A stretch of 64,000 nt of DNA from Yamagishiella unicocca (taxonomy: Eukaryota > Chlorophyta > Chlorophyceae > Chlamydomonadales > Volvocaceae). The first letter of the stretch is position 1, and the number at the start of each line of letters is the position of its first letter. The notes below the pieces were generated by a model, which was given only the letters and a program-made list of their open reading frames with translations, searched no databases and was not told the origin of the DNA. The position numbers were made by a program, and so were the translations under genes. Below are positions 1 through 64,000 of the stretch, piece after piece. The stretch lies in NCBI GenBank assembly GCA_003116995.1, contig BDSL01000166.1, positions 62,001-126,000 on the forward strand, in the 5' to 3' direction.

Positions 1-1446
1 CCCGCGTTTTTTTTTTCCCCCCCCCGGGGCCGGCCCTCTTTTCGTTCCCCGCCGGGGCCCCGCCCCTGCCGCCCTTCCCCGCCCTCCCCCCCGCCCCCCG
101 GCCGCCGGGGCCCTTTCTTTTTCTTCCTTTGGCCGCCCTCCCGCCCTCCTCGTTCGCGGTCTCTCCCTCTCGTTCCGTTCCTTCCTCCTTTTTCCGCGGC
201 CCGTTTTCCCCTCCCCGCGTCCGTCCGCCCCTCCCGTTCCTCTTGTTCTTTTTCCGGCTCCCCCTTTCGTTGCTTCGCTCCCCGCCCCCTCCCCCGTTTT
301 TTTTTCTTTCCTGCTTCCTCCCGTCCCTCCGTTTCCCCTCCCTCTCTCCTCCTCTTCTCTCTCTTTCTTTTCCCCCCCTCTTCTCTTCCTTTTCTTTCTT
401 TCTGCTGTCCTCTGCTCCTTGTTCCCTCCGCGGCGCTTTTTCGTCCCCGCCGGGGCGCCCCCCCTTTTCGCTCCTTTCTTCGCTCCCTGTTCTCTCCTTT
501 CGTCTTTTTTCGTTCGTCTTCGTCTCTTCTCTTTTTTTTCGCTTTGTTTCTTCCTTTGGCCGCCCCGTCCCCTTCGGGGTGTCCCGCTCGTCGCTTCCCG
601 CTGCTTGGCTCGTGTTTTCCCCCTTCCTTGCCCCCGCCCTCCTCCCCCCTCCCGGGGCTCTCGTCGTCCTTTGGCCGCCTCTGCGGTCTGCTCCGCTCGC
701 CGCGGCCCGCCGCGGCTTTTCGTTTTCCGCTCTTTCCCCCTTCGTTGTTTCTTTTCGTCTCCGCCGGCCCCGTCGTTCCCCTTCTTTTTGTTTCCCTTCT
801 TTTTCCCCCGGTCCGTCCCTCTTCTTTTTGTTTCCCTTCTTTTTCCCCCCGGTCCGTCCCTCTTCTTTTTGTTTCCCTTCGTCCCTCTTCGCGGGCCGCC
901 CCGTCGTTTGTTTCCCTTCGTCCCTCTTCGCGGGCCGCCCCCGTCGGCCCCCGCCGGGGCGTTTCTTTCTTTCCCCGCCCGCCCTTCCCTTGTTTTGTTT
1001 CCCTTCGTCCCTCTTCGCGGGCCGCCCCCGTCCCCGCCGGGGTGTCCCCCTTCCCTCCTTTTTCTTCCCGTTTGTTTCTTGTCTTTTCTTGTCGCTTTCC
1101 GCCCCGCCGGGGCCGTCCCGCTCCCTCGCCTCTGGTTTTTTTCTTCCCGCGGCCGCCCTCCCCGCCCCCCCCCCGGCCGCCCCGTCCCCTTCGGGGCCGG
1201 CCCCCGCCGCGGGCCGCCGGGCCCCCCCTTTGGCCGCCCCTGTTTCGTTTTTTTCTTTTCCTTTCCTTCCCCCCCTCCGTGTTTTTTTCCTTCCCTTCCC
1301 CGCCCCGCCCGCCCTCCCCCCTCCCGCTGTCCCTTCTGTCCCTCTTTCTCTTTCCGCCCTGCCTCCCTTGTGTTTCGCCCCCCCGGGTTCGCTGTTCCCT
1401 CGTTCGGCGCGCTTCCTGGTCCTGTCCCCCTCTTCTCCCCCTTTCT
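1..1446. repeat. intergenic repeat field upstream of petB
   Basis: No gene is recognised here. The stretch is made of short dispersed repeats that recur throughout the window: hairpin-like cores such as ccccgccggggc and ccccttcggggc, and the longer unit beginning tttcccttcgtccctcttcg (copies near 865, 905 and 995). Runs of C and T dominate. Because A is printed as C, whether the cores are true palindromes cannot be judged except for their G and T positions. Confidence 0.7.
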
Positions 1447-2088
1447 CTGCGTCCGTCTCCGCTTGGTTTGCCGCGCGTCTCGCCCTTCCCGCCCTTGCTG
1501 CTGCTCTTTCCCGTCCCTCTGTTCCGCCCCCTGTTCCTCTTTTCTCTTGTCTCGGTGGTCTCCCGTTTCCTTGTTTCTTCGTTCCCGTCGCTCCTGGCTT
1601 TGCTCTGCCGTTCTCTTCTCGTCCTCCTGTCGCCGCCGCTTTTGCTTCTGTTCCCTCTCTTCTGCCCGCTGTTCCTTTTGGTTGGTTCCTTCGTTCCCTT
1701 CCCCGTTGGTCTGCTCGTCTGCTGGTTCTTCTGCTGCTTTTCCCCGTTTTCCGTGTTTCTTTCCCTGGTGGTTTTCCCCGCCCCCGTGCGTTCCCCTGGG
1801 TCCCGGCGTCCTTCTGGCTGTTTGTCCCGTCTCTTTTGGTGTCCCTGGTTCTTCTTTCCCTTGGGCCCCCGTTGGTTCCTGGGCTGTCCCCTTGTCCCGG
1901 TGTTCCTGCCGCCCTTCCTGGCGTTGGTCGTTTCGTTGTTGCCTTCTTCCGTGGTGGTGTTGGTGTCGGTCCCTCCCCTTTCCCCCGTTTCTCTCGTTTC
2001 CCTCCTTTTGTCTTCCCCTTTTCCCCGCGGTTTTCCTGCTTCTGCCCTTCTTCCTGCTTCGCCCCCCGGTCTTTCTGGTCCTCTCTCC
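1447..2088 (+). CDS. petB: cytochrome b6 of the cytochrome b6f complex
   Basis: Cytochrome b6 is a four-helix thylakoid membrane protein that binds two b hemes and carries electrons and protons between the photosystems. With C read as A or C, the frame gives MSKVYDWFEERLEIQ at the start, then GGITFTCFLVQVATGFAMTF, RSIHRWSASMMVLMM with the second heme-binding region, SLPWDQ-type text, ELLRGGVGVG, and ends in GISGPL plus TAA (printed TCC). The printed gene is 642 nt, 6 nt short of the usual 215 codons. Losses are seen in C runs, for example after the second codon and in the C-terminal R-K-Q stretch, so strict translation breaks. The start CTG stands for ATG. trnL and clpP follow on the same strand. 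Identification is secure; exact residues at C-containing codons are not. Confidence 0.95.
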
Positions 2089-2660
2089 TCTCGCGTCCCT
2101 CTCTCCCCTTTCCGCGCCCCCCTCCCCGGGTTTTCGTTTGCTTCCTCCTCTCTCCCTGTTGGGGCTCGCTTCGTCCCCCTTCGCCTGCCCTTGCGGGTCT
2201 TTTTTTCGGGGGCGCTTGTCTTCCTCCGTGCCGCCCCCCTCTTTCGCTCCCCCCCGCCCTCCTTCCTCTCTCCCCTGCTTTTTCTCTCCCTCTCCCGCGT
2301 CTCTTCGCTCGTTCCCCTTGGGGCCCTCCCGCTCCCTCCTCCTCCTCTCTCGCTCCCCCCTTTTTTTCTTGTGTCTTTTTTTTCTCGTTCTCGTTGTCGT
2401 TCCTTCTCTCTCGCTCCTCCCGTTCTCCCTTCCCTCCGTTCCGCTCTTCCGTCTTTGTCCCTTCCCCTTGTTTTCCCCCCCTCCCCCTTCGTTTGCTCCC
2501 CCCGCTGGCCCCCCCTCTCCTTTGGCGCTGTCGGTTCCTTGCCCGTCCCTGTCTGCTGGCTTTTGCCCCGCCCCCTCCTCGCGCCCTCCTCCCTTCCCCC
2601 CGCGTCCCTTCCTCGCCCCCCTCCCCCCTCTGGTCTCTCTCTTTTCTCCCCTCCCCCCTC
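2089..2660. other. intergenic, no gene seen
   Basis: C/T-rich spacer between petB and trnL. I find no tRNA fold, no coding periodicity in G positions and few copies of the dispersed repeats. It may hold the petB 3' end and tRNA leader, but no terminator can be placed with A lost. Confidence 0.4.
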
Positions 2661-2742
2661 GCCTTTGTGCTGGCCTTGGTCGCCCTCCTGGTTTTCGGCC
2701 CCCGTGCTGCCCGGCGTGCCGGTTCGCGTCCGGCCGCCGGCC
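2661..2742 (+). tRNA. trnL-UAG: tRNA-Leu (UAG)
   Basis: Class II tRNA with a long variable arm. The acceptor GCCTTTG pairs with the 3' segment printed cgccggc (CGAAGGC once A is restored). The anticodon stem CTGGT/ACCAG encloses loop TTTAGGC, giving anticodon UAG. The T arm reads GCCGGTTCGAGTCCGGC. At 82 nt the length is normal for tRNA-Leu. It lies between petB and clpP on the same strand. Confidence 0.93.
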
Positions 2743-3710
2743 TCTCCTTCCCTTTTCCCGTCCCGTTTTCCTTCGTCCTCTCTCGTGCCCCTCCTCTTTC
2801 TTCCCTCGCGGTCCCCCCGCTCCCTTCCTTCGTTTTCCTCGGTGCTGTTTCTTTTTTGGCGGTCTCTCCCCCTGTTGCCCTCTTGCTCCTGCCGCTGTTT
2901 TCCCCCCCCCCCCTTTCTGCGCCTTCGTGTGGGGGGCCTGTCTTGCTGCTCCTCTGCGTGTTTTCCGCTCGCCTTTGTCTCCCGCCCGTCCCCCTTCTTT
3001 TCGTCCCCCCGGCCCCGTCGTGGTTCGTTCTTCTTTTGTTTTTTTTCGTGTTTTGTTTCTTTCTTCCTTTGGTCCCCCGCCGGGGCCCCGCCCCCCGCTC
3101 CCCGCCCTCCCGCCCCCCCCCCCGCCGCGGGCCTTCCCTCCGGTCCCCCGCCGGGCCCCCCCCCCTTCCTTTTCTTTTTCCTGCCGGCCCCCTTTTCTTC
3201 CTCTTTTCTTTTCCCCCTCCGCGTTTTTCCCCTCCCTTCCCGCCCCCCTTTGGCCGCCCCCCCCTTTTTTTCCGCCCTCCCCCCCTCCCTCCCCTTCGGG
3301 GCTGTCCGCGTTTCCCCCCCCCCCGCTGGCCCCCTTTGGTTTTTTTCCCGCCCCTCCCGGCGCGTTTTTTTCCGCCCCCCCCCCCGCCCTTCCCCCCCTC
3401 CGGCGTTTTTTTCGTTCGTTCTTCCTTTGGCCGCCCCCCTCCCCCCGCTCCGTTCTTTTCTTCTTTTCGCCCCCCCCCCCGTTTTTTCCTCTTTTCTTCC
3501 CCTTTCTTGTTTTCTTCCTTTCGCCGCCCCCCGCCCCGCCCGCCGGGCCCGCCCTTCCCCGCCCTCCCTTTGTTTTCTTCCCCCGGCCGCCTCCCCTCCC
3601 GCCCTCCCGCCGGTGGCCTGTCCTCTCGTCCCGGTCTCGTTCCCCTGCCCCTTCCTTGTTCCGCCGCCTGGGTTGCCCCCGCCCCGTTTCTTTTCTCCCT
3701 TCCCCTTTTT
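2743..3710. repeat. intergenic with dispersed repeats
   Basis: A C/T-rich unique stretch to about 3,000 is followed by a dense block of dispersed repeats (about 3,060-3,600) with hairpin-like cores such as ccccgccggggc and the segment ctttggccgccccc. From about 3,600 the sequence becomes less repetitive and leads into clpP. No tRNA or coding signal was found. Confidence 0.5.
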
Positions 3711-5260
3711 CTGCCTCTTGGCGTTCCTCGCCTTCTTTCTTGTTGGGGTGCCGCCTTCCCCGCCCCCTGGCCTGCTCTTTCTCCTTTTCTTTTCCGTCGT
3801 CGTCTGGTGTTTTTCCTGCCCTCTTTCGCTGCTGCCCTTTGTCCCCCCTTTGTGGGTTCCTTCTTCCTCTTCCCCTGGCCGCTCGCTCGCCCGCCTTCGC
3901 CCCCCCGCCCTGGCCCCCGTGGCTTCTTTCCCCGTCCCCCCCCCCCCGCCCGGGTCCGCTCCTTTCCCCCCGCCCTCTTTCTGGTGGCGCCGCCCGTGCG
4001 CCCGCCCTCTGTTGCCGCTTTCTTCCCCTCTGCTCCCGCTTTTGGTCTTGCCGCTCCTCCTCTGTTCGCCCCCTCTCCTCTGCCCCCCTCCCCCCGCCTG
4101 GCTTCCTTGGCCTGCCCCCTTTTTTGCTTCTTCCGCTGCCCCGTCTTTCTCTTCTTTCGCCGCTCTCTTCTCCCCGCTTTTTCCCCCGGCTCCGCCCCTT
4201 TCCCTCCGGTGTCCCTCTCCCCTCCCGCCGCCCTGCCCCCCTCCTTCCTGGTTTCCCCCTCTTCCCCCTCTCTCCCCTGCTCCCCCTGGTTCCCCTCTCC
4301 TTTCGCTGTCTCTTCGCCGTTTCGCTTCTTCGCTCCTTTTGCCCCTCCCCCTTCTCCCTTCGCCCCTTTCCCCCTTCGTCCCCTCCCCCCCGGTCCTTTT
4401 GCTGCCCTTTTCTCTGTCCTCCCCCCGTTCTGTTCCTCCCCTCCCCTTTTCCTCCCCCTCCTGGCTCCTTTCTCCCCCCCGCCTTTCCTCGCCCCTTCCC
4501 GCCCCCGCCCCCTGTTCGCTTCTTCTGCCCCGCTTTCGGTCCCCGTCGTTTCCCCCGTCCCTCTCTTCCCGCCCGTTTCGGTCCCGCTCCTCTTCGCCGC
4601 GGCTTCCCCCCGCGCCCTTCTTTCCCCGCTTCTCCTTCTTTCGCTCCCGGTTCCTTCCTCCTGCCGGCCCTTTCCTTTCCCCCCCGGGGCCCGCTCCCTC
4701 CGGTCGTGCTTTCTCTCGTCCCCCCCTGCCCGTGTTCTCCCCGCCGCCGCCTCTCCCCCGTCTTTCTGCTCCTCCCTTCTTTTGGTGGCTCTGTTGGTCC
4801 TGGTCTTCCTGTTCCTGCTGCTTTCCCCTTTCTTCCCGCCGGTTCTTTCCCTTTCGCTTTCGGCGTCGCCGCGTCCGCTGCCTCCTTCGCCTTCGCCGGT
4901 GGTCCTCTTGGTGCCCGTTCTGTTCCGCCGGTTGTCCTCCCCTGCTCCCCCGCCTGCGGGTGGCTTCCCTGGTCCCGCCTCTGCCCTTTGGCTTGCTCGT
5001 CCCGCCCTTCTGCCCCTCCGTTTCGCTGTTGCCGCCCTTTCTTCTTTCTCCCCCTCTCGCCCCCGTCCTCCCCTCTTCCGTGCTTTCGCTCGTGCTTTTT
5101 CTTTCCCCGCCCTGGCCCTCTTTCTTCTGGTTTCGCTGCTGCCCTTGCTCCTCCTGCCGTCCTGCCTGCCCTTCTTGCCCTGCCTCGTCCGTTTGGGCTT
5201 CTCCTGCTCGTCCCCCCCCGTTTCTTCGCCCCCGTGCTCGTCCCCCCTCTGGCCTCGCTC
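3711..5260 (+). CDS. clpP: ATP-dependent Clp protease proteolytic subunit with large insertion
   Basis: ClpP is the serine protease core of the stromal Clp complex. With A restored, the N-terminus reads MPIGVPRIIYCWGEELP, then WTDIYNFIFRRRMVFLMQYL, as in Chlamydomonas ClpP1. The C-terminal half starts near 4,780 with GGSVGNGI, then DALQFIKAGSLTLALGVAAS, which contains the catalytic Ser (AAS), and then an M-I-H-Q-P-E-G-G block with the catalytic His. Between these two parts lies about 800 nt of charged, poorly conserved sequence, matching the insertion known in chlamydomonad clpP. C-run losses shift the frame several times, for example at 'CNQICG' and at 'VTEGCHTMIHQ'. The frame can be followed to about 5,250 (VWAYHDSK then a Lys/Gln run); the stop is not certain, so the end is approximate. 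Confidence 0.9.
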
Positions 5261-6879
5261 CCCCCCTCCGCCTTCCTCTTTTTCTTCCCTCTTCCCGTTT
5301 TTTTTCCCCCCTCGCCTCTCGCTCTTTTCCTCGTTTTTTCCCCCCTCGTCCCTCGCTGTCTTCCCCTCCCTCTCTGCTGTGCTTTTGTTGTTTCTTCTTT
5401 TGGTTCCCCGCCGGGGCCCCGCCCGCCCGCCTTCTTTTTTTTTCTTTCCCCCCCGCTCCGTTCTGGTTCTTTCTTCCCCCCCGCGGCGCGTTTTTTCCCG
5501 CCCCCCGGCCCCCTTTGGCCGCCCCTGCCCTCCTGCCCCCCCCCTCCGTCGTGGTCCTTTCTTCCGCCGGCCGCCCTTCCTTTTCTTTCTCCCTCCTTTT
5601 CTCCCCGGCGCCCCCCTTCTTTTTGTTTCCCTTCGTCCCTCTTCGCGGGCCGCCCCGTCGGCCCCCGCCCTTCTTTTTCCCGGCGGTCCGTCCCTCTTCT
5701 TTTTGTTTCCCTTCGTCCCTCTTCTTTTTGCCTTCCCCGCCGGGGCCTTTTTCTTGTCTTTTCTTCCTCCGGCCGCCCCCCCCCCCGGCCGCCCCCCCGG
5801 GCCGCCCCGTCGGCCCCCGCCGGGGCCGGCCCCGGGCCGCCCCCGTCGTTCGTGTTCGTGTTTTGTTTCCCTTCGGTCCCCGCCGTCCCCCCCGCCGGGG
5901 CCCTCCTGTTCCTTTGGGGCCTTTTTCTTCCCTTTTGTTTCCCTTCGTCCCTCTTCGCGGGCCGCCCCCGTCGGCCCCCGGGCCGCCCCGTCGTTCGTGT
6001 TCGTGTTTTCCTCCGTCCCCCCTTCTGTCCCCCCCGGGGCTGTCCTTTCTTCTTTCCCTTCGTCCCTCTTCGCGGGCCGCCCCGTCCTTTCTTCTTCTTC
6101 CCTCGCCGCGGGCCGCCGCCCCCCGCCCGCCCCCCGTCCCCTTCTTTTTGCCTCCCCCCCGGGCCTTTTTCTTCCCTCGCCGCGGGCCTTCCCTTTGGTC
6201 CCCGCCGGGCCCCCCCGCCTTTTTCTTCCCGTTTCCCTCCGGCCCCCGCCGCGGGCCTTCCCTCCGGTCCCCCGCCGGGCCCCCCCCCTTTTTCTTCCCG
6301 TTTCCCTCCGGCCCCCGCCGCGGGCCGCCCGGCCCTCTTTGCCTTCTTTTTCCCGGCGGTCCCCCCCCGCCGGGGGCCGCCCGGCCCCGGCTCTTCCTCG
6401 TCCCGCTCCTTCCCTCCTCCTCCTGTTTTTTGTTCCGCGTTTTTTGTTCCCCCCCGCTTCCCTCCCCGCCGGGGCTGTCTTTGTTTCGTTGGGTTCTTTC
6501 TTTTCCTTTCGTTCTTTCGTTCTTTCTTCCTCTGGCCGCCCCCCCGTTTTTTTCCCGCCCTCTTCTTTTCTTCCCCCGGCCGCCCCCCCCCGTTTTTTCC
6601 CCCCCGTTCCCCCCCCCGGGGCCGTCGTTTCCCTCCCCGGCCCCCTTGCCCTTTTTCCCCGCCCCTCTCTCTTTCTTCTCTCTTCTCCCTCCCTCTTTTC
6701 CTCCCTGCTTGCTTCCCTCCCTCGGTCGCGTCTCGGTTTTGTCCCCGCCGGTTCTCGGTTCCCCTCCGCTCGTCCGCTTTTCCCCTCGCCCCCGCCCCTT
6801 TCTCTTTCTTGTCCCTTCTCTCTTCTCCCCTCCTCCTCTCCTCGCTTTTCTCTTTCTTCTTTGTTCTCCTCCTCCTTCC
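5260..6879. repeat. repeat-dense intergenic region
   Basis: After about 130 nt of C/T-rich sequence behind clpP, nearly everything from 5,400 to 6,660 is dispersed repeat: copies of the tttcccttcgtccctcttcg unit (about 5,630, 5,940, 6,055), the cttccctcgccgcgggcc unit (about 6,100, 6,175) and many C-run/loop/G-run cores. From 6,660 to 6,879 the sequence is unique and C/T-rich. No gene is recognised. Confidence 0.7.
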
Positions 6880-6950
6880 GGCGGCCTCGCCCGCGGTCCG
6901 GCCGTGGCTTGCCCCTCCTCTCTTCCCCCGTTCCCCTCTGGGTGCCGCCT
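6880..6950 (+). tRNA. trnC-GCA: tRNA-Cys (GCA)
   Basis: Acceptor GGCGGCA pairs with TGCCGCC. The D arm GCCAAGCGGTAAGGC and the segment GTGGCTTGCAAATC hold anticodon GCA; the T arm reads CCAGTTCAAATCTGG (A restored). At 71 nt the length is typical for plastid trnC. Plus strand, isolated within repeats, with trnW about 520 nt downstream. Confidence 0.93.
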
Positions 6951-7473: not shown

Positions 7474-7545
7474 CCGTCCTTCGTTCCGTCGGTCGCCCGC
7501 CGGTTTCCCCCCCTGCTGTCGTGGGTTCCCTTCCTCCCGGGCGTG
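7474..7545 (+). tRNA. trnW-CCA: tRNA-Trp (CCA)
   Basis: Acceptor ACGTCCT pairs with AGGGCGT, with one T-G wobble. D stem GTTC/GAAC. Anticodon stem CAGGT/ACCTG encloses loop TTCCAAA, anticodon CCA. T arm GTGGGTTCAATTCCTAC, discriminator G. The anticodon loop run prints seven C where eight are expected, one of the many C-run losses in this window. A Gly (UCC) reading of the loop was considered, but it needs a different run length and pairs less well. Confidence 0.88.
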
Positions 7546-29311: not shown

Positions 29312-30352
29312 CTGCCCTCGCGCTTGGTCCTCTCCCGCCCCCGTCCTTGGTTTGCTGCCGCTGCTGCCTGGCTTCGTCCCGCCCGTTTCGTCTTCGTCGG
29401 TTGGTCCGGTTTCTTCCTTTTCCCTTGTGCTTCCTTTGCCCTTGGTGGTTGGTTCCCTGGTCCGCCTTTCGTTCCCTCCTGGTCCCCCCTGGTCTCGCTC
29501 CTTCTTCCTTCGCCGGTTGTCCCTTCTTCCCGCCGCTGTCTCCCCCCCGCCCCCGTCTGGCTCCCTCTCTCCTCTTTGTTTGGGGTCCCGCCGCTCCCGG
29601 TGCTTTCCCCCGTTGGTGTCCCCTTGGTGGTCTCTGGGCCTTTGTTGCTTTCCCCGGTGCTTTTGCTCTCCTTGGTTTCCTGCTTCGTCCGTTTGCCCTT
29701 GCTCGTTCCGTCCCCTTCCGTCCCTCCCCGCGCTTGCTTTCTCCGCTCCTCTTGCTGTCTTCGTCGCTGTTTTCCTTCTTTCCCCTTTCGGTCCCTCCGG
29801 TTGGTTCTTTGCCCCTCGTTTTGGTGTTGCTGCGCTTTTCCGTTTCCTCTTCTTCTTCCCCGGTTTCCCCCCCTGGCCCTTCCCCCCTTCCCCCTGCTGG
29901 GTGTTGCTGGTGTTTTCGGTGCTGCTCTCCTTTGTGCTCTCCCTGGTGCTCCTGTCGCCCCCCCTCTTTGCCGCTGGTGCTGGTGCTCCCCTTTCCGTGC
30001 TTTCCCCCTCCCCCGGCCGCCGCCCCTTCTTCCCTGGTCCCTGCCCCCGTTTCTGGTCCCCGCTTTTTGGTGTTGCTTTCTCCCCCCCCGTTGGTTCCCC
30101 TTCTTCCTGTTCCTTGTTCCGGTCCCTGGTTTCTGGCTGCGTGCCCTGGGCGTTGTCGGCCTTGCCTTCCCTTCCGTGCTTCTGCCTTCGTTTCCCCCGC
30201 CCTTCGTGCCGCCGCCGCCCCTGCGTTCGCCCCTTTCTCTCCTCCCCCCTCCTTCTTCCCGCCGGTCTCCGTGCTTGGCTGGCTGCGCCCGCCCCCCCCC
30301 CGCCCGTTTCGTCTTCCCCGCCGCCGTCTTCCCCCGTGGTCCCGCTCTCTCC
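29312..30352 (+). CDS. psbD: photosystem II reaction centre protein D2
   Basis: D2 forms the PSII reaction-centre heterodimer with D1. With A restored the frame reads MTIAIGT, then [78 protein letters not shown], the [20 protein letters not shown] region with a metal-binding His, and the C-terminus EEVLPRGNAL followed by TAA. The printed gene is 1,041 nt against the 1,059 nt expected for 352 codons plus stop; the 18 missing bases fall in C runs. psaA exon 2 lies about 950 nt downstream, the arrangement known in Chlamydomonas, where the two are co-transcribed. Confidence 0.97.
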
Positions 30353-38209: not shown

Positions 38210-38570
38210 CTGCCTCCCCTTCCCCCCTTCCTCCGTTCCGCTCGTCCCCCCTGCCCCCCCCCTCCCTCCCCCGCTCTTCCCTCCTGTCCCCCCGCCGTGG
38301 TCTTTGTCTTCGTGTTTCTCCCGTCCCCCTCCCCCCCTCCCTCCGCGCTTCGTCCGTCGCTCGGGTTCGTTTCCCCCCTGGCTTTGCCGTCCCTGCTTCT
38401 CTTCCCGGTGTTGGCCCTCCCTTCCCCGCCCCTGCCGTTGTTTTCGTTCGTGGTGGCCGGGTCCCGGCTTTCCCTGGTGTCCGTTCTCCTCTTGTCCGTG
38501 GTCGCTTCGCTCCCGCTGGTGTCCCCCTCGTGTTCCCCGTCGTTCCCCCTCTGGTGTTCCCCTCGCCTCC
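38210..38570 (+). CDS. rps12: 30S ribosomal protein S12
   Basis: S12 sits at the decoding centre of the small ribosomal subunit. The gene is in one piece, as in chlorophyceans. The frame reads MPTIQQLIRSARKK, a Lys/Pro-rich stretch, [70 protein letters not shown] and RSKYGVK near the end, with a stop (TCC for TAA) about four codons later. Printed length is 361 nt; losses in the A/C-rich Lys-Lys and Asn-Arg runs break the frame, so the last residues are uncertain. It closes the psbJ-atpI-psaJ-rps12 cluster. Confidence 0.95.
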
Positions 38571-40066: not shown

Positions 40067-41496
40067 CTGCGTGCTTCTCTTGCCCCCCCCCTGGGGCGTC
40101 TTCTCCCCCTTCTTGGTCCTGTCTTCGCTCTCGTCTTTGCTCCCGGCCCCGTCCCCCCCTTTCTCCCGCTCTTCCTCTTCGTGCTCCCCCTGCTGCCGGT
40201 CTCGCCCTGGCTGTCCCTTGTGCCGTTCCCCCCTTCTCGGTGCTCCCGCTCTTCGTGCGGTTTCCCTGCCCCCCCCGCCGGTTTCCTGCGTGGTCTGGCC
40301 GTCGTCGCTCCTGGTCCCCCTTCCCTGTTCCTGTCGGTCCCGTCCCTTTCGGCCGTCTTTTTCCCGTTCTTGGTGCCCCTCTCGCTCCCCTGGGTCCTGT
40401 TCCCGTTGCCGCCCCTTTCCCTCTTCCCCGTCCTGCTCCTGCTTTCGTTGCCTTCGCTCCTCGTTTCTCTCTTTTTGCCCCTGGTCTTCCCGTCGTCGCC
40501 CTTTTCGCTCCCTCCCGTCGTGGTGGTCCCCTTGGTCTTTTTGGTGGTGCTGGTGTCGGCCCCCTGTTTTCCTTCTGGCCTTCCTTCCCCCTCTTGCTCC
40601 CGCTCCTGGTGGTGTTTCTGTTTTCGCTGGTGTCGGTGCCCGCCCCCGTGCCGGTCCTGCCCTTTCTCCCGCCCTGCCCGCCTCTGGCGTTCTTGTTGCC
40701 CCCCTTTCTCTGCTTCCCCCGTCGCTCTTGTTTCCGGCCCCCTGCCTGCCCCTCCCGGTGCTCGTCTGCGTGTTGCTTTCCCTGCCTTCCCTCTGGCTGC
40801 CTCTTTCCGTGCTCTCCCTCCCCCGCCGTTTTCTTCTTCGTTGCTCCCCTTTTCCGTTTCGTCCCCGCTGGTGCTGCCGTCTCTGCTCTTTTCGGTCGTC
40901 TGCCTTCTGCTGTCGGTTCCCCCCCTCCTCTTGCCCCCGCCCTGGGTGGTCTTCCCGCCCGTCTTCCTTCGCCTCCCGCTGGTTCTCTCCCTTCCCTTCC
41001 CGCTGTTTCTGTTCCCGCCGCTGCCCTTCCTGCCCCTGCTCCCGCTCCTCCCTTTGCTCCCTTCGCTGCTCCTCCCGTCCTTTCTCGTCCCTTCGCTGCT
41101 CCCGGTCTTTCTCCTGCTGTTGCCCCCTTCGCCTCCCCTTCTCCTCTGTTCCCCCCCTGGCTTGTTGGTGCCCCCCCTCTGCTCGTGCCCCCCGTGTTCC
41201 CCCCCCTTCCCCGTTCCCCGCCTTCCCCGCTCTTCTTGCCCTTCTTGGTTTCGCTGCCTTCTCTGCCGCCGCTCGCCTTCTCGTTTCTCGTGCCCGTCCC
41301 TTGCCCGTTTCTTCTCCCCCCCTTCTTCGTCGCTGCCGTCTTCCCCGGTTCCCCTGGTCCCTCTGTTTCCCTCGCTGCCCCTCTTGCCGGTTTTGGTCCG
41401 CTTTTTGGTGGTGCCTTCGCTTCTTTCCCTGCCCCCGCTTTCTCCTTCGTCGGTCCCCTTCCCGCCGTTTTCCGCCCCGCGGCTTCTTTCCCCTCC
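40067..41496 (+). CDS. atpB: ATP synthase CF1 beta subunit
   Basis: AtpB is the catalytic subunit of chloroplast ATP synthase. The N-terminus reads MSDSIET..MGRIIQIIGPV, LDIVFAPGQVPNIYNA. The Walker A region [15 protein letters not shown] is printed at about 40,523-40,566 with its GGTGGTGCTGGTGTCGG core intact. The C-terminus reads VSLAETIEGFG, GELDSLPEQAFYLVGNI and KAASLK before a stop. Between them the G/T pattern follows the family throughout. C-run losses occur, for example within the Glu-Thr-Lys-Asn run near the start (about three bases). The rRNA operon lies 3.4 kb downstream on the same strand. Confidence 0.97.
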
Positions 41497-44929: not shown

Positions 44930-46432
44930 GCGTCTCCCTGGCGCGTTTGCTCCTGGCTCCGGCCGCCCGCTGGCGGCCTGCCTCCCCCTGCCCGTCGCCC
45001 GCGCCTTTCCTTCCTTTCCCCCTTCCGGGGGCCCGCCGTGTGTCGTGGCGGCCGGGTGCGTCCCGCGTCCGCCCCTCCCTCTCGGCGGGGGCTCCCCTTG
45101 GGCCCCTGTTGCTCCTCCCCCTCCCCGCTGCGGCGTGCCCGGTGTCCCCCCCCGCTCGCGGGGCTTGCGTCTGCTTCGCTCGTTGGTGGGGGTCCCGGCC
45201 TCCCCCGGCCCCGCTCCGTCGCTGGTCTGCGCGGCTGCTCCGCCCCCCTGGGCCTGCGCCCCGGCCCCGCCTCCTCCGGGCGGCCGCCGTGCGGCCTTTT
45301 TCGCCCTGGGCGCCCGCCTGCCGCCGCCCTGCCGCGTGCCGGCCGCCGGCCTGTGGGTCGTCCCCTGCTTTTCTCCGCGCCGCCGTTCTGCCGGTCTCTG
45401 CGGCCTCCGCCCCGGCTCCCTCTGTGCCCGCCGCCGCGGTCCTCCCGCGGGTGCCCGCGTTGTCCGGCCTGCTTGGGCGTCCCGCGTCTGTCGGTGGCTC
45501 GTCCCGTCTCCTGTCCCCTCCCCGGGCTCCCCCTTGGCCCGGCCTTGGCGCCCTCCCGCGCTTGCGTCCGGTCGCGGCCGCGGGCCTTCCCCGTGGCGCG
45601 GTGCCCTGCGTCGCGCTTTGGCGGCCCCCCGTGGCGCCGGCGCTCTGCTGGGCCGCCCCTGCCCCTGCGCGCCGCCCGCTGGGGGCGCGCCTCGGCTTCG
45701 CTCCCCTCGTCGTCCCCGCCGTCCCCTCTGGCGCCTCCGTGCTGCCCCCGCCGTGCTGTCGCTCCCGCGTTCCGTCTCCCGCCTGGGGCGTCTGCTCGCC
45801 CGCGTGCCCCTCCCGGCCTTGCCGGGGCCCCGCCCCCGCGGTGGCTTCTGTGGCTTCCTTCGCTGCCCCGCGCCGCCCCTTCCCCGGGTTTGCCCTGTCC
45901 CGCCCTTCCCCGCCCTGGGCCGGTGCCCTCCCGGGCGCTTGCCCCCCGGTGGTGCCTGGCTGTCGTCCGCTCGTGCTGTGCCGTGTCTCGTTCCGTCTCC
46001 TCCCGCGCGCCCCCCTCGTCTTTCGTTGCCCTTTGGTTCTCTCCCGCGCCTGCCCGTGTCCGCTGGCGGCCGGTGCGGCTGCCGTCCCGTCCGCCTGCCC
46101 CTTCCCCCCTGGGCTTCCCCCGTCCTCCCCTGGTTGGGCCCCTCCGCCGCGCTCTCGTGCGCGCTCGCGGCTCTGTTCCCCCCCCCTCCGTTCGGCTTGT
46201 CGGCTGCCCCTCGCCTCCCTGCCGCCGGCCTCGCTCGTCCTCGCCCGTCCGCTCTCTGGCGGTGCCTCCGTTCCCGGGTCTTGTCCCCCCCGCCCGTCCC
46301 CCCCGGCCGCTGGTTCTGCTCCCCGTCGTTCCCCTCCCCTTCGGGCGGGGGGCGCCTCCCGCCGGGCTCGTGCCCCGGGTGCCGTCGTCCCCGGTCGGGC
46401 TCCTGGCCGGTGGCCCTGGCTCCCCTCCTTCC
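44930..46432 (+). rRNA. rrnS: 16S ribosomal RNA, plastid type
   Basis: Restoring A at C positions gives the universal 5' motif GAGAGTTTGATCCTGGCTCAG, the 530 loop (printed gtgcccgccgccgcggtcc at 45,424 = GTGCCAGCAGCCGCGGTAA), then ATTGGGCGTAAAGCGTCTGT, typical of green plastids, and the 3' end CTGGATCACCTCCTT with the anti-Shine-Dalgarno CCTCC. About 1,500 nt, so no intron. The printed 5' region TAACACATG is one base short in its C run. This gene is the clearest proof that C stands for A or C across the window. Confidence 0.98.
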
Positions 46433-48193: not shown

Positions 48194-48219
48194 CCTTCGT
48201 TCCCGCCCCGCCCTTCTCC

Positions 48220-48292
48220 GGGGGTCTCGCTCCGTTGGTCGCGCGCTGCCTTTGCCCGGCCGCTGTCCGCGGTTCGCCTCCGCTTCTCTCCC
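48220..48292 (+). tRNA. trnA-UGC: tRNA-Ala (UGC)
   Basis: Acceptor GGGGGTA pairs with TATCTCC. D arm AGCTCAGTTGGTAGAGC; CTTTGCACG gives anticodon UGC. T arm AGCGGTTCGACTCCGCT. No intron; 26 nt after trnI. Confidence 0.97.
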
Positions 48293-48551
48293 CCCCTCGC
48301 CCCCGGCGCTTGCTTTTCCGCGCGCCTCCCTCCCCTCCCTCCCCCGCCGCTCCCCTTTGTTTTTTTTTCTTTCTTGTCGCTTTGTTTCTTCCTTTGTTTT
48401 TGCTCTCCCCCCGGGGCCGGCCCCCTTTGGTTTTTTTCTTCCCGCGGCCGCCCTCCCCGCCCCCCGCTCCTTTTCCCCCTCGGGGCCTCGCCTTTGGTTT
48501 CCCTTCGGGCCCCGCCCCCCCCCCGGGGCCGCGCCCTTTTTCTCCGGTCCC
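48293..48551. repeat. trnA-7S spacer
   Basis: Mostly dispersed repeat (about 48,350-48,540), with the ctttccccctcggggc-type core and a tttttttcttcccgcggccg unit, separating trnA from the first 23S-family segment. Confidence 0.6.
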
Positions 48552-48845
48552 CTGCCCTCCGGCGTCCGGTGGCGCCCTCGGCCCTCCGCGCCGCCGCCGG
48601 GCGCCGCTCCCGGCGCTCCGCTTCGGGGCGCTGGCCCCCCGCTTTGCTCCGCCGCTTCCCGCCTCGGGCCCCCTCCTCGCCCTCCCTCTCTCCTTCCTCG
48701 TTCGGTCCGCGGCCCCCCGTGCCCTGCCCCCTCTCCGTCGCTGGCGGCCCCGCCGCCCCCGCGCTTCCCGTCGTCGCGGCGCGCGCCCCGGGCCCCGCCT
48801 CCCCCTCCGCCGCCCGGTGTCGGGGTCGTGGGCGGCCCCTTCCTC
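48552..48845 (+). rRNA. rrn7: 7S rRNA, 5' segment of the fragmented 23S
   Basis: The sequence follows the first about 290 positions of 23S: CAGGTGGAGCC..., AGCTACCGGCGATACGCTTCGG and GAGC(T)GGAAACAAGCTTTGATC-type text, then the domain I block with the AGTAGCGGCGAGCGA pattern. It ends before a T-rich stretch at about 48,850-48,865 that is not 23S-like. Chlamydomonas plastids have a separate 7S rRNA of this extent. Ends are estimated by alignment from memory. Confidence 0.7.
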
Positions 48846-48865
48846 CCCCTTGCCTTTTTTCCTCC

Positions 48866-48915
48866 GCCGCCGCTGCCTCCTGCCCCCTCGCTGGTGCCCG
48901 TCCCGTCGTCCCCGC
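48866..48915 (+). rRNA. rrn3: 3S rRNA candidate
   Basis: A short GC-containing block between two T-rich spacers (about 48,848-48,865 and 48,918-48,940), in the position and about the size of the 47-nt 3S rRNA of Chlamydomonas plastids. Supported by position, not by sequence recognition. Confidence 0.45.
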
Positions 48916-50497
48916 CCCTTTCCTTTTTGTCTCCTCCCGCGTCGCCTGGGGCCCGTGCCCTCCCGTGTGCCTCCGCGCGGCCCCCCTCGTCCGGCTCCCT
49001 CCTCCTGCGTGCCCGCTCGCGCCCTCGTCCCCCGCGGGCCCGGTGCCCCGCCCCCCTGTTGGGGCGTGCCCTCGCCCCTGCCCCCGTCTGCTGCCCCGCC
49101 GTGGGCGCCCGTCTGCTTGTGCCCGCGTGCCTGTTGCCGCCTGCGCCGGCGCCTTCTCGGGCGTGGCTGGGTTCCGGCGTCCCCTCCGGCGCCCCCGCGC
49201 CCGCGCGTCTGCCTCGGGCGTCCCTGGTCCCTTCTTCTGGCCCCGCCCCCGGGTGCTCTCTTCCTGGCCCGGCTGCCGCTTGGGTCCCCCCCGTGGCGGT
49301 CCGCCCCGCCCGCTGTTGCCCCCTCGGCGGCTGCGCTGTGCCTCGGGGCGCCCTTCCCCTCGCCCTCGGCGCTCGCTGGCTCTCCCCGCCCTGCGTTGCG
49401 GCGCCGCGGTCCCGCTGCCCTCTCTTGGGGTCCCGCTCCTGTTTCGCTGCGGGCTGCGCCCGTGGTCCCCCGTCGTGGCCCCCTCCGCCTCCCCGCTCTG
49501 TCTTCCGTCCCCCCGTGCGCCCGTGGGGGCTCCGCTTCCTTGTCCCGCGGGCCCCCGCCCCGCTCCCCCGCTCCGGCCCCTCCCTGGTCCCTCCGTGGCC
49601 CCGGCTGTGCGCCTGCTGCCCCCCCCGGCGGTTTGCTTCGCCGCCGCCCCCCTTCCCCGCGTGCGTCCTCGCTCCCTGGTCCCGCGTTCTTGCGCCGCTC
49701 CTGGCCGGGCCTCCGTGCCCTGCCGCCGCTGTGCTCTCCTTTCTTTCTCCTCCTTTCTCGGTCGGGGCGCGTTCCGCTCTCGGGTGCCGTTTTCCCGTCC
49801 GTGGGGCTGGCCGCCGCGGCCGTGCGCCTGTCGGCTTGCGTCCCGCCCCCCTTGGTGCGCCTCCCCTGCCCCGCCCCCTCCGGGTTCCTCCCCTCGGTTC
49901 GTCCCTGGGGGGTTCGTCCGGCCCTCCGCCTCGGCCCCCGGCGTCGTCGCTGGCCCCCGGTTCCTCTTCCTGTCCTCCTTCCCTTCGGCTCTGCGGGCCG
50001 CCGGCGGCTCCCCTCGCCCTGTTTTTGGCTTGCCGTGGCCGCGTTTCGCCGTTGCGCGCTCGCCTCCCGCTCTCTTGCGTGGCGCCGTCCTCCCTCTCTG
50101 CTGGTTCGCCGTCGTGTCGCTCGTGCTGTCCTCCTTCCCCGCCCCGCTCCTCCCTCCTTCTCCTTTCCTTCCCTGTCCCTGCCCCCGCCCCCGGTCGGTT
50201 GGTCGCGCCTCCCCCGGGGCGCGCGCGCCCTCTCTCTCCGGCCCTCGGCCCCCTGGCCCCGTCCCTTCGGCCGCCGGGGCGCCCCCCTTCCTTTTTTGGG
50301 TCGCCGTGCCCCGGCCCCGGCGCCTGTTTCCCCCCCCCCGGTCTCCGCCCCGTCGTCCGCCCCTCTCTGGGGGCTGCCGCCTGCCCCGTGCCGGCCGGTT
50401 CCGGCCGTTGGTTCTTTCTTTCCCCGTCCGGGGCCCCGCCCCCGCTGCCGCCCGCCGCCCCGGTGCCCGGCGGTCGTCCCTCTCCCGCTCCTCCGGT

Positions 50498-51531
50498 TTG
50501 CCCTCGCTCGCTTTCGTCCCCCGCCCTCTCTGCTGGCCCCTCCTCTTTTGTCCTTCTCTCTCCCCCGGCCTCCGGCCGCGCCCCCCCGTTCCTTTTTCCC
50601 CTCCCCCTCCTTTCTTTTTCCCCTCCCGTCCCCTCCCGCTCCCCCGTCCTCGTTCGTCCTCCCTGCCCCCGGCCCGTCGTTTGCCCCCCCGGGGCCCCCC
50701 TTTTTGGTTTTTTGGCCCCCGGGCGCCCCCGCCCTTTGGCCTTGGCCTCCCTCTGCCTTTTCCTTCTCTCCCCGTCTCGCCGTCCCCTCGTTGCGCCCTG
50801 GGGCCCCTCCGCCGGGCCGCCCCTTCCCCCGCCTCCTTGGCCCGCCCCCGTGCCTTGCCTCTTCGGCCTCCGCCGGGCCCCCTCCGCGCCTCTCCGTTTG
50901 GCCCTTTTTCCCCTCCTCTTCCCCTCCCCTTCTGCCCCCCCCTTCGCCCCCCCTGGCTTGTCGGGTTCGTCGCCGGTGCGGGTTGTTTTCCTTTCGCTGT
51001 TCCTGTCCCCGCCGCCCTGCGTTGGGGCCTGCCCCTGCCGCTCGCCTTTGTTGTTGTTCCCCCCGCGTCTGCTCGCCCCGTTTTGGCCGCTCTCCCCGCG
51101 GTTTTTGGTTGTGGTCCTGTCCGTGTCCCTCGCCTCGCTCGTCCCCGCCCCCGCCTGCCTTCTCGGTGTCCCCTCTGCCGCCTCTTCCTGCCCTCCTTGT
51201 TCCTTTCTTTGCCCCCCCCCGTTCCCCCCCGCCCGCCTTGCGTTTGCCCGCTTCCGCGCCCTTGTGCCTCCCCTGTCTGCTGGTTCCCCCCCCCCTCTCT
51301 CCCCCCTTTTTCGCCGTCCTCCCCTCGGCGCCGCTTTCCGCGTCCGCTTTCGCCCCGCTCGTCCCCCCCCCGCCCTCCCGTCGCTGCCCTTCTCCCCCTC
51401 TCCGTCTGCGTTCCGCCGCCGCTCCCCCTTTCTCCCGTCCTTGTTCGCTCTTCGGTCCCTTTCCTCTTCTCCCCTTTGGGGCCCCCTTTCCGCTCGCGTC
51501 CCGCTCTCCTTGCCCGGTTCGCGGTTCCCTG
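50498..51531 (+). other. group I intron at 23S position 1931, with LAGLIDADG ORF
   Basis: Lies between exon U1931 and A1932 and ends in G, as group I introns do. About 1,034 nt. Near 50,954-50,990 the plus frame reads W-L-V-G-F-V-E-G-E-G-C-F, a good LAGLIDADG signature (the two acidic residues are ambiguous Glu/Asp versus Ala), so it very probably encodes a homing endonuclease. Site 1931 is a known intron site in chlamydomonad plastid 23S. C-run base loss prevents a full ORF from being traced. A small block of C-run/G-run cores sits at 50,690-50,720. Confidence 0.85.
50930..51320 (+). CDS. LAGLIDADG homing endonuclease in the 1931 intron (partial reading)
   Basis: The only block read with confidence is the first LAGLIDADG helix, GFVEGEGCF, at about 50,960-50,990. 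Downstream G positions keep a first-codon bias (many GTT, GGT, GCT-like triplets) for roughly 300 nt, as expected for a plus-strand plastid ORF. Start and stop cannot be fixed. Such enzymes cut the intronless 23S allele and spread the intron. Confidence 0.55.
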
Positions 51532-52102
51532 CGCGCCCTTCCTTGTCGCGTCCGTTTCGCCCTGCCCGCCCGGCGTCCCGCTCTGGGCGCTGTCTCGGCG
51601 CGCGGCTCGGTGCCCTCGCCTTGTCCCGTGCCGCTGCGGCCTCCCTCCCCCTGGCCCGCCCGCCCCTCTGCCGCTTGCCTGTCTCTTGGCCTTGGGTTTG
51701 GGCTTTTCTTGCGCCGCCTCGGTGGGCGGCTCTGCCGCTTCCCTTCCGGGGTCCTTCGCGCCGTCCTTGCGCGCCCCCTCTGGCCGCGCTCGCCTCCTCC
51801 TGGGGCTCCTTGCCTCCGGCCCCTTGCCCGTTTCCGGTGGGCCGTTTCTTTGGGGCGCCTGCCTCCTCCCCGGTCCCGGCGGCGTGCCCCGGTTCCCTCC
51901 GTCTGGCCGGCCCTCCGCCCTTGCGTGTCCCGGCCCCCGGGCGCTTGCCTGCCCGCCCTCCCCGTCGCGCCGGGGCGCCCGCCGGCCTTCGTGCTCCGCC
52001 GGTGCCGCGTGGCCGGGCCGTCGCTCCCCGGCTCCCCGTTCCTCTCGGGCTCCCCGGCTGCTCTTCCCCCCGCGTTCCCCTCGCCGGGCCGGTTTGGCCC
52101 CT

Positions 52103-53180
52103 CCCCCTTCGGGGTCCTGCCCGTGTGCGCTTTCCGTGTGCCCTTCGCTCTCTGCTGGCCTCTCCGTCCCCTCTCCCCCGTTGCGCCGTGGTGTTTCGTC
52201 TCCTTTGCCCCTCTCCTGTTCTCTCGGGCCGCGCGCCGGTGCGGCCCCTCCGCCGGGCCGTCCTCTCCTTCCTCCTCCTCCCCTCCCCTCTCGTCCGCCT
52301 GCCCCCTCCCCGCCTCCCTGCTGCGCCCCTGCGGTCTTGTTCCCGCTTTGTTCCCCCCCGCCCGGCCCCGTGGGCCCCTCCGGGCGCTCCTCGCTGTGGC
52401 CCTGCCCCCCGGTGGTGCTCTCGTCTGCCCTCTTGGGCGCCCCCTCGGCCGCTTTTCGGCTCCGCTTGCCCCGCCCCCCTCCCTCTGCCCCCTTCCCCCC
52501 CCCCCCCGCCTTCCTCTTTGGGCCTTTCCTCGGTGCTGGGCCTTTGCCCCCCGCCCCTCCTGGTCGCCCTTGGCGCTCTCGGGCTCTTCCCCCCCCGCGC
52601 CTCCCCTTCTCTCTTTCCTCCTCTCCCGTTTTCGCTCCTTTCTGTCCTTCCCCGCCTCTCTTCGGCGCGCCTTTTGCTGCCCGCCCTCCTCCCCTTCCGT
52701 TCGTTCCTCTTTTCCGCCCCTCCCCGTTCCTCTTTCTCTTTCTTTGGCCCTCCCTTTTCTCCTTCTCCTGCCCCCCCCCCCCTGGGTGCCCGCTGTCCCT
52801 CCCCCCTTGCGCCTTTTTTCCCTCCTCCTGCGCTTGCTTGTTTTTCCCTGGCCGCTGGCGCTTTCCCCTGGCTTGGTCCCTCCCCTGCGCTGCTTTCCTC
52901 TCCGCGGCCCCTCTGTCCCGCCCGCTTTCGCTTCGCCGGTGTCGCCCGTCTCCCCCCGCTTTCGCCCCCTTTCTCCTCTTCCCCGCCCTTCTCCCCCCGC
53001 CCCTTCCCGCTGGCCCCTTGGGTCTCGCCTTGCCCTTCCCGCCGCCTCCTCCCGGGCTTTTCCGGCCTTCCTCCGCCCTTTTTTCGTCGCTCCTCTGCCC
53101 TCTCCGTCTCCGCTGGTCCTTGTGGTCCCTTCGGCCCCGTCGTTTCCTCTCTCGCTCCCTTCCCTCTTCGCCCCTCCTTG
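52103..53180 (+). other. group I intron at 23S position 2500, with LAGLIDADG ORF
   Basis: Inserted between U2500 and C2501; 1,078 nt, ending in G. Around 52,520-52,556 the plus frame reads G-x-L-L-G-D-G-x-L, the form of LAGLIDADG common in chlamydomonad intron endonucleases (GTLLGDGHL-like). Position 2500, at the peptidyl transferase ring, is a recorded intron site in these algae. Confidence 0.85.
52480..53000 (+). CDS. LAGLIDADG homing endonuclease in the 2500 intron (partial reading)
   Basis: Motif GxLLGDGxL near 52,525-52,550, followed by sequence with plus-strand plastid codon character. No second motif was assigned and the ends are guesses from the intron core positions. Function: intron homing by cutting the 23S target around position 2500. 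Confidence 0.5.
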
Positions 53181-53419
53181 CGCTGTCGGCTCCTCCCCTC
53201 CTCGGTCTGTCGTCGGTCCGCCGGGTTGGGCTGTTCGCCCCTTCCCGTGGTCCGTGCGCTGGGTTCCCCCCGTCGTCCCCTTCTTGCGCCCTTGCCCCGT
53301 GCTTTGCCCGCCCCCTTGCCTCCTCTCGGCGCCCCCCTTTTCTCCCCCCCCGGCCCGGGCCCCCCGCGGGCCGTCCGTCCGTTCCTTTCCCCCCCCCCTT
53401 TCTGCCTCCCCCCCCCCCT

Positions 53420-54000
53420 CCTTCTTCGTCCGGCTTTCCCCGCTCTTCTTCCTGGTTCCGTCCTGGGTGCTGGTTCTTTCCCCCCCCCGGGCCTCTTCCC
53501 GTTGCTCCCGGTGCCCCCCCTCCCGTTTGTCGCCTGGTTGCCCGCCCCCTCCCCCCCTTTGCCCCGCCCCTTGTGCTCTCCCCCCGTTCTTCGCGTTTGC
53601 CCTCGGCCCCCGGGCCGCCCCCCCCTCTTCCCGCTTTCCCCCCCCGCTGTGTTGCCGGCTTCTTCTCCGCCTTGGTCTCGCCCGCTTGCGGGCGCGCGTC
53701 CTTCTGTTTTGCCTCTGGCCCCGCTCCCGCCCCGGCTGCCTCCCCCCTTGCTGCCCTGTTTCGCCCTTTCTTTCTCCCCGTTTGGTTTGCTTGCGCTGGC
53801 CCCCCCTTCTCGGCTCTCGCGGGGCTCCCTTTGCCGTTCCTTCCTTCTCTGCGGCGGCCCGCGCCCTTTTGCCCCCCTTTTTCCCTCCCCTCTGCCCTTT
53901 CTGTTCCTCTTCTCCGGCGCGGTCCCTCCCGGCCTGGTCCCGCTCCCTGGGCTCTTGCTCTTCCCTCTGGTGCCTCTGCCCCGTTTCGCGCTTTGCTTCC
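53420..54000 (+). CDS. LAGLIDADG-like ORF in the 2593 intron, possibly degenerate
   Basis: The motif block near 53,447-53,480 fits a LAGLIDADG helix once C is read as A or C. The following 500 nt hold long C runs in which bases have been lost, so an intact frame cannot be confirmed. It may be a functional homing endonuclease or a decayed one. Confidence 0.4.
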
Positions 54001-54154
54001 CCCGCTTGCTTTGCTCCCGGCTTTCTTTCCTTCTCCCTTCCCTCCCCCCTTCCCGCCTTTCTTGCCCCCGTCCCGCCTCTGTTCTCGTTTCTCCCTCGTC
54101 CGTCCCCTTCTTCCCCCTCTTTGGGCTGTGGCCCCCGCCGGCTCCCCTTTCTTC

Positions 54155-54250
54155 CCGTTTTTTTCTTTCTTTTTTTCTTCGTCCCTCTTCGCGGGCCGCC
54201 GCCGCCCTTCCTTTTTCTTCCCTCGCCGCGGGCCGCCGGGCCCCCCGCCC
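54155..54250. repeat. dispersed repeat copy inside the rrnL 2593 intron
   Basis: A composite of the segment tttttttcttcgtccctctt-cgcgggccgccgccgcccttcc and the unit cttccctcgccgcgggccgc, the same composite seen at about 10,826-10,905, 11,990-12,030, 13,768-13,850 and 42,346-42,400. It lies in the distal intron, after the endonuclease-like segment and before the 3' splice site. Confidence 0.9.
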
Positions 54251-54745
54251 CCCCCCCTGTCCCTTTGTTCTCCCCGGCCCCTCTTTCTTCCGTTTTCCTT
54301 CCTTCCGCCCGCTGCTGGTCTCGTCTGCGCCCTCCGTCCTTCGGGCCTTCTCCCCCCTCCTGCCCCCTCCCGGCGCCCGCGGCCGGCCTTTTCTCCCCTT
54401 TTTCTTCTCCTTCCCCCTTTGGTGGCCGTCCCTCCTGCTTCCGCCTGCCCCTCCCCGGCGCCCGTTTGGTCCCTCTCCGGTGTCGGCGTTCGCGCCTTGC
54501 GCGTCGCCTTTCCTCGTCCGCGCGGCCCTGCCCGGCCCTGCCCCTTGTGTCCCCGTTCTCCTTCCCCTGGGCCCCGCTGGGTCGCTCCGCCTGGCTCGCT
54601 CCCTGCTGCCCGCCTCTCCGTCGGCCGCTCCCCTCCCGCTGCGTGCTCTCTCCGGCCGCGGCTCGCCCCGCCGTTCTCTCGGTCTCCGGTGTCCCGTCCG
54701 CCCTGGCTTCCGCCGCGCTCTCCTCCCGGCCGTTTGCTTTTGCCC

Positions 54746-54978
54746 TTTCTCCTCCTCCTCCTTTCTCCCTCCTCTTTTTCCCCCCCCTGTCTCCCCCCTC
54801 CCGTTGGGTTCGGCCCTCCGTTGTCGTTCCCCTTTGTTTTTGCCCTCGGCCCCCGCCTTTTTCTTCCCGTTTGTTTCTTCCTTTGGCCGCCCCGTCCCCT
54901 TCGGGGCCGGCCCCCGCCGCGGGCCGCCGGGCCCCCCCTCCCCCTTCTCGTTTTCCCCGGCTCCCGCTTTGCTGGCTT
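54746..54978. repeat. 23S-5S spacer
   Basis: C/T-rich sequence with one dispersed-repeat block (about 54,820-54,935). No gene. Confidence 0.6.
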
Positions 54979-63065: not shown

Positions 63066-63612
63066 CTGCCCGCCCTCTTCGCCCGTCGTGCCCCTTCTCG
63101 CCTCTGGGCTCGTTTTTGTGCGTGGCTCCCTTCCCCTGCCCCCGCCTTTCCCTCGGTTGGTTCGGTGTCCTTCTGCTCCCTTGTCTTCTTCCTGCCCCCT
63201 CCGTCTTCCTCCTCGCTTTCCTCGCTGCTCCGCCCGTCGCCCTCGCTGGTCTCCGTGCCCCCGTTTCCGGTTCTCTTCTTTCCGGTCCCCCCTCCTCCCC
63301 GGTGCTGTTCTTCCCCCTTCTCCCGCCTCGGTTTCCCCTTCTCCCCCCTTTGGGCCGCTGCTTCTCTCGCCGCCTGGTTCTCCCCGGCGGTCCTTCCCCC
63401 TGCTCGTTTGCCCCTTCCTTCTCGGTGTTTCCTGCTCCCTGGGTCGTGCGTGGGCCTTTCCTTCCGTTTCGGTCTGCGTCCCTGGCTCGCTGTTGCTTCC
63501 TCCGCTCCCGTCGCTGCTGCTTCTGCTGTCTTCTTCGTCTCCCCCCTTGGCCCCGGTTCCTTCTCTGCCGGTCTGCCTTTCGGTCTTTCTGGTCCTTTCC
63601 CCTTTCTGCTCG
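63066..63612 (+). CDS. psbA: photosystem II protein D1, exon 1
   Basis: D1 is the reaction-centre partner of D2 and carries the manganese-cluster and QB ligands. The frame reads MTAILERRENS, LWARFCEWITSTEN, IGWFGVLMIP, and later [46 protein letters not shown]. It then leaves the protein at GTGCGCC, so an intron starts after the first base of the next codon. About 180 of 353 codons are present. One base is lost in the Glu-Asn-Arg run. The rest of the gene lies beyond the window. It follows the rRNA operon, as in the Chlamydomonas inverted repeat. Confidence 0.97.
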
Positions 63613-64000
63613 GTGCGCCTTGTTTCTCTGCCCTCCTGCGTGCCCCTCGCCGTTGGCCGGCGGGTGTGTCGGGTCCCGTCCCCTCGGTGTTCCCTGCCCT
63701 CCGCCTCCCTCCTCCTTTTCTTCCGCGTGCCGTCTCGTCCGTGGTTGCCCCCGTCCCCCCTCCGCCGTCCTCCCCGCGCGGCCTCCCCCCTTTTCGCCGT
63801 TGCCTCGCTGGCCTGCCTGCTGGGGTCACCGCCTTCCCTCTGGCCTCGCCTCCCGGCGCCGGGCGCGGTCGTCTTCCTCTTCGGCTCGGGCCTCCCTCCT
63901 CGGGCCCCTCGTCCCGTGGGCTCTCCCCCCCGCCTCTCTCTCCCCCCCTCTTCCGCCGTCCGTCGGGTCCTTTCGCTACCGCCTTCCCTGGCACACCCCG
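63613..64000 (+). other. psbA intron (5' part), group II-like
   Basis: Starts GTGCGCCTTG, matching the group II 5' consensus GUGYG, the same seven bases as at the psaA exon 2 border. Following text with gttggccggcgggtgtgtcg and paired G/C blocks suggests a structured RNA. A group I reading is possible if the exon is taken to end two bases earlier, at ATGAT. It runs out of the window. All four printed adenines of the window (63,828, 63,978, 63,993, 63,995) lie in this intron. Confidence 0.7.

Follow-up and report, generated by a model that had tools for sequence, protein, structure and literature searches.

What could leave 64 kb of gene-bearing DNA with almost no adenine is the question raised by the stretch analysed here, the forward strand of contig C166 from 62,001 to 126,000 (C166:62001-126000; numbered 1 to 64,000 and called the window, which denotes the whole stretch). 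The window contains 30,915 C, 21,460 T, 11,621 G, and four A residues, and the four A's (63828, 63978, 63993, and 63995; 63828..63995) are confined to its final 173 bases, at the start of an A-containing tail of C166. In addition to the replacement of A by C, bases are missing, mostly those of the A/C class, and reading frames are broken within genes. With a probability of about 0.9, we consider the window to be chloroplast sequence printed with A as C, the A pulses having been called C by the base caller in a share of the PacBio single-molecule real-time (SMRT) reads. The initial annotation had described the window as nearly A-free, had read every printed C as A or C, and had assigned the anomaly to a data fault rather than to biology. 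These statements, and the plastid genes that it named, are upheld by the base count (4 A per 64,000), the rRNA alignments, the protein comparisons, and the opposite-strand contigs that restore the A's. Ribosomal DNA (rDNA) contigs that switch strands and a converted SMRTbell adapter point to PacBio base calls, an origin on which the initial annotation was silent. The cause, the origin at the level of reads, and the spread through the assembly are new.

The reading of C as A or C is demonstrated most directly by the rRNA genes. The 16S rRNA gene (44936..46431, plus strand, sense, A printed as C) aligned to Escherichia coli rrsB with an identity of 0.641 as printed, rising to 0.877 once A and C were merged (score, 1802.5; best of 20 shuffles, 850.5), and the 362 A's of E. 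coli aligned to the window correspond to 334 C, 17 G, 11 T, and no A. The 23S rRNA gene (48546..54747, plus strand) aligned to E. coli rrlB in three pieces (48546-50441, 51366-52340, and 54564-54747; 2,693 columns) with an identity of 0.587 as printed, or 0.830 after merging; the 731 A's of E. coli in these alignments correspond to 654 C, 48 G, 29 T, and no A. Aligning the rRNA with A and C merged, a check named beforehand, thus placed the C's of the window opposite A or C of the E. coli genes. The 530 loop (45424) and the sarcin-ricin loop (54515) are present exactly as previously printed. Relative to E. coli, the 23S gene shows two intron-like gaps with approximate borders, at roughly 50.4-51.4 and 52.3-54.5 kb.

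Since the A-to-C change would arise at the level of reads, separate A-less contigs are predicted for the opposite strand. When an antisense query, i.e. the 16S sequence with T changed to G, was used, contigs C860, C284, C854, and C155 were matched on the minus strand at 90-91% along almost the entire gene. In a keto/amino alphabet, sense and antisense sequences agree in 1482/1482, 1482/1482, 1482/1482, and 1475/1475 columns, i.e. in all four copies, and G and T, which had been described as unaffected, are accordingly intact where they could be compared. Merging the window with C284 yields a 16S sequence that equals that of E. coli in 1,168 of 1,404 columns, and the union of both A-less strands therefore gives the true 16S. 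The sense 16S lacks only A or C, apart from one G (against C155); the antisense copies lack only G or T, apart from a single C within a gap of four bases against C155. Antisense overlaps beyond short palindromes were absent from the 30 strongest bins in a fold-back comparison of C166, C211, C228, and the first 10 kb of C155 (C166 and C211 each less 2 kb), and these plastid contigs thus do not fold back on themselves.

Opposite 16S strands, taken alone, also fit a text or encoding step that swapped A for C after assembly in finished contigs printed in either direction. Such a step agrees, too, with the observation that every A-less contig is printed A-less and none T-less, the matches listed being all on the plus strand (31/31 in the 18S-motif search). 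It does not fit the A's that remain. In C166, C211, and C228, 117 isolated A's are left (C166 and C211 being covered except for 2 kb apiece); they are never adjacent to one another and lie mostly close to contig ends, with 87 less than 5 kb from the right end and 15 less than 5 kb from the left. Where C166 overlaps C228 and C155 (C166:125001-129634), its 65 A's are opposed in C228 by 51 C, 12 gaps, 2 T, and no A, and in C155 by 49 C, 14 gaps, 2 T, and no A; the extra bases of the contigs overlapping this tail are mostly C as well (96/108 in C228 and 103/115 in C155). The residual A's thus behave as the product of a noisy consensus and not of a text replacement. Contig C428 begins without A and ends with a normal composition: in its first 12.1 kb, nine 120-base samples contain no A and a 300-base sample at 7.0 kb contains one, whereas farther along the count per 120 bases is 1 in each of three samples from 13-15 kb and then climbs to 13 at 16 kb and to 20 at 17.1 kb. 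This return of A suggests that the fault can fade. A simple replacement, with total loss of A and no transition within a contig, is refuted by C428 and the residual A's. The missing bases, which belong to the A/C class of whichever contig lacks them, and the inclusion of high-copy templates and strand-switching contigs among those affected also count against a text step, as do the converted adapters described below, and we regard this explanation as very improbable.

The position of the fault in the data flow is indicated by the SMRTbell adapter, both strands of which are given in an excerpt of PMC12745853 and the oligonucleotide of which is given in an excerpt of PMC5218489. C208:69-114 contains the complete 45-nt adapter, in which each A has become C and a single C has been added, scoring 87 against at most 47 in 200 shuffles and 16 for the unconverted adapter. 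A second converted copy, C208:30500-30541, lacks three C's of a C run (score, 79; shuffles, ≤52), and its flanks mirror each other in 39/39 keto/amino positions, which none of 500 shuffles equalled; in a wider scan, this mirror scored 45 against a null maximum of 29. The two copies are 30.4 kb apart, and the same sequence follows each of them, on which ground C208 is probably the record of several passes round one SMRTbell. A third and noisier copy, C386:10965-11013 (72 versus 53), lies at a strand turn predicted from 18S positions at 10998, and its flank mirror scored 27, compared with 24 for the best of 500 shuffles. Over the 133 Mb, a 23-base converted-adapter pattern has three exact matches, all on the plus strand (C208:84, C208:30511, and C386:10984). 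An A-free adapter core, which would reveal the unconverted adapter on either strand, had no match in the assembly with up to two mismatches and no indels. As contigs still contain converted adapters and the A-free core was unmatched, A was most likely lost before adapter cutting, in base calling.

Strand switches are frequent in the A-less rDNA contigs. A search with two 18S motifs found both orientations in 9 of the 17 contigs with A-less motifs; this count leaves out four plastid contigs and C1 and C8 (ordinary large contigs with a short sense motif) and includes C249, C484, and C1314 by their motifs and not by their composition. Motifs on the same strand are spaced 8.0-8.1 kb apart. In C213, they follow the order - - + + - - +, with turns at about 15734, 31011, and 46027. 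The predicted rDNA turns number 12 in all, and of the four that were read, the adapter was present in one (C386).

Several results weigh against our explanation. The turns of C213, C366, and C769 (141 bases each) contain no adapter, and no mirror above the null was found at them, C366 showing only a weak mirror at the predicted spot. The mirror of C386 equals the null maximum in the wider scan (29 versus 29). The converted pattern also has a match with one mismatch in C158, and a backward control gave two chance matches within one mismatch. In the window itself, no adapter stands out (best score, 48; shuffled maxima, 48-55). Literature searches, judged by the listed results, yielded no published report of such reads.

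The converted adapter also bears on a chemical explanation, in which a modified plastid adenine is read as C by a nanopore or other base caller. Strand specificity in the direction of reading, which the fault shows, is what a base modification would produce, but the A-less contigs also include nuclear rDNA, a probably mitochondrial contig, and others, normal rDNA copies exist beside A-less ones, and the adapter, a synthetic oligonucleotide that would not carry a modification of the alga, is converted too. A naturally A-less genome or a modified adenine requires an effect confined to living DNA, and the conversion of the adapter leads us to reject both; the probability that we assign to real chemistry is close to nil.

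The assembly analysed comprises 133,378,104 bases in 1,415 contigs, with an interpolated N50 of 671-713 kb. These statistics resemble those given in an excerpt of PMC6123790, which names the read sets DRA004920, DRA002727, and DRA004919, for YamagishiellaPlus_1.0 of Yamagishiella unicocca plus (134,234,618 bp, 1,461 contigs, N50 of 666,310, PacBio RS II, HGAP3), which is a likely though unproven match, some contigs of the present assembly having been trimmed or masked. Contigs C394, C428, C483, C673, and C1005 have round lengths (17500, 15000, 2500) outside the size order and were apparently trimmed, and C394 carries N at 12 kb.

At least 30 contigs were seen by their letters to be A-less: plastid contigs, nuclear rDNA, one probably mitochondrial contig, and four others. 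Eleven share plastid genes or repeats (C155, C166, C194, C211, C228, C269, C284, C312, C854, C860, and C1151) and have a combined length of 606,502 bases, their composition being that of the stretches read. Fourteen contigs sampled at nuclear 18S matches contain 0 or 1 A per 300 bases. C208 (64 kb) is also A-less and, judging from weak pieces resembling small-subunit rRNA, is probably mitochondrial DNA. C299, drawn as a control, turned out to be A-less, as did three (C341, C728, and C1317) of 60 contigs sampled at random (120 bases each); C299, C728, and C1317 are GC-rich and perhaps represent abundant bacterial contaminants. Two contigs with low A, C24 (2 A) and C1141 (4 A), are G-rich and not C-rich and are counted as ordinary repeats outside the A-less set. 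The remaining controls (13 contigs plus C214 and C301) are normal, as are most of the contigs sampled. From the random sample (3/60), some 5% of the assembly's contigs may be A-less, and these are likely misread plastid, rDNA, and other DNA. Normal 18S genes are present in C394, C673, and C1005 alongside the A-less rDNA and, together with C428, indicate that the fault touches only some of the data.

These observations would be accounted for if A was lost in base calling, most likely ahead of adapter recognition. PacBio software normally cuts reads where adapters are recognized. The 45-nt adapter has 20 A's in the read direction, so that recognition of a converted adapter would likely fail and some polymerase reads would remain uncut into subreads. 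A-less reads would overlap neither normal nor opposite-strand reads and would be assembled separately; if such reads were few, only high-copy templates, i.e. the plastid, the mitochondrion, rDNA, and perhaps abundant bacteria, would gain sufficient depth. Normal plastid contigs may then have been removed as organelle sequence, leaving the A-less ones, for which no reference would match. A candidate for the confusion within the instrument is spectral confusion of two neighbouring dyes, and the A and C dyes are presumably neighbours in the RS II.

Within this explanation, the errors may stem from bad calibration or a bad reagent confined to one or a few SMRT cells rather than from scattered single wells. 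One bad cell among many would give the low nuclear and high plastid depth that is seen, and an excerpt of PMC6123790, the paper whose assembly resembles the present one, mentions several libraries and two chemistries. However, A's return along C428 and near the right ends of contigs, which suggests a fade within the read, and we give a fault of whole cells slightly less than an even chance.

Three known kinds of artefact resemble these contigs in part. SMRTbell reads left un-split by a missed adapter likewise follow one strand, pass the hairpin adapter, and return along the other strand, as the mirrored flanks at C208:30500-30541 do; here, every A of the adapter itself is called C, and this would account for the failure to detect it. 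Since two of the three copies show hardly any other error, noise is not the sole cause. Three-letter bisulfite reads, in which C is read as T, share the strand-specific collapse of a base and the retention of the full information by the two strands jointly. Bisulfite is not known to turn A into C; here, A collapses into C, and the adapter is also collapsed. Organelle and rDNA contigs that persist in nuclear assemblies are similarly extra contigs from high-copy templates, and excerpts of PMC10256686 and PMC10291315 describe the removal of organelle contigs by sequence match in other volvocine projects. The A-less contigs, by comparison, would hardly match an organelle reference, and such a screen would miss them. 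As regards genome structure, the plastid genome of Volvox carteri is described in an excerpt of PMC2670323 as bloated and rich in short palindromic repeats; the 606,502 bases in 11 contigs found here are likewise repeat-rich, and, the strands being separate, this sum of contigs is not a genome size.

It is possible, and we suggest it only tentatively, that public assemblies of the RS II era hold unrecognized shadow contigs of organelles, rDNA, and abundant contaminants, in which one base is collapsed over tens of kilobases, adapters included. If so, these contigs would be invisible to a reference search, and since both strands are present, their true sequence would be restorable without loss. 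A check of base composition or a search with the A-to-C adapter would reveal such contigs in other assemblies. A-less printed strands contain hardly any stop codon and give few matches, which carries a risk of false claims of novel repeat genomes. The printed strand of C166 is open for 42,212 codons. A search of the window as printed against Rfam at the gathering score returned no family, and a plasmid search with window positions 1-8000 returned no match.

On the grounds of gene content, i.e. plastid-type 16S and 23S rRNA and photosystem genes, the window is taken to be green-algal chloroplast sequence, more probably than cyanobacterial, in the setting of the 133 Mb assembly. Protein genes were examined by reading each C as A or C and comparing the best ungapped match with five shuffles per protein. 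Conserved blocks of the five proteins named in the initial annotation (D1, D2, AtpB, S12, and cytochrome b6) proved readable in this way, with scores of 188 to 451.5 that lie far above the shuffle maxima of 45 to 66; RbcL was not found in the window by the same ungapped matching (60 versus a shuffled maximum of 55.5).

All five genes lie on the plus strand. The cytochrome b6 gene (petB, 1455..2068) contains frame breaks and gave a best high-scoring segment pair (HSP) of 451.5 (shuffled maximum, 61.5). The D2 gene (psbD, 29339..30172), also with frame breaks, gave a best HSP of 239.5 (64.5), and PF00124 matched it as printed at C166:91505-91858, i.e. at 29505-29858 of the window. The gene for ribosomal protein S12 (rps12, 38210..38561) gave a best HSP of 194.5 (45), with smaller pieces of 45.5-52.5 near the null, and atpB (40318..41306), with frame breaks, gave 423.5 (54). 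The D1 gene (psbA, 63066..63611) is represented by pieces covering residues 1-184, with frame breaks and HSPs of 188, 179.5, 101, 90, and 82.5 (66), and is matched by PF00124 at C166:125453-125611. In the whole assembly, this photosystem family has four matches, all on the plus strand. Because every one of them lies in an A-less contig, no normal psbA or psbD was found by PF00124 matches in the assembly.

The repeat CCTTTGGCCGCCC occurs in 25 copies scattered through the window from 126 to 62666. From C269:23989 to its end, contig C269 matches window 41888-49437 continuously at 97%, and the left border of this match (window 41888) may be the border of the plastid inverted repeat or a repeat.

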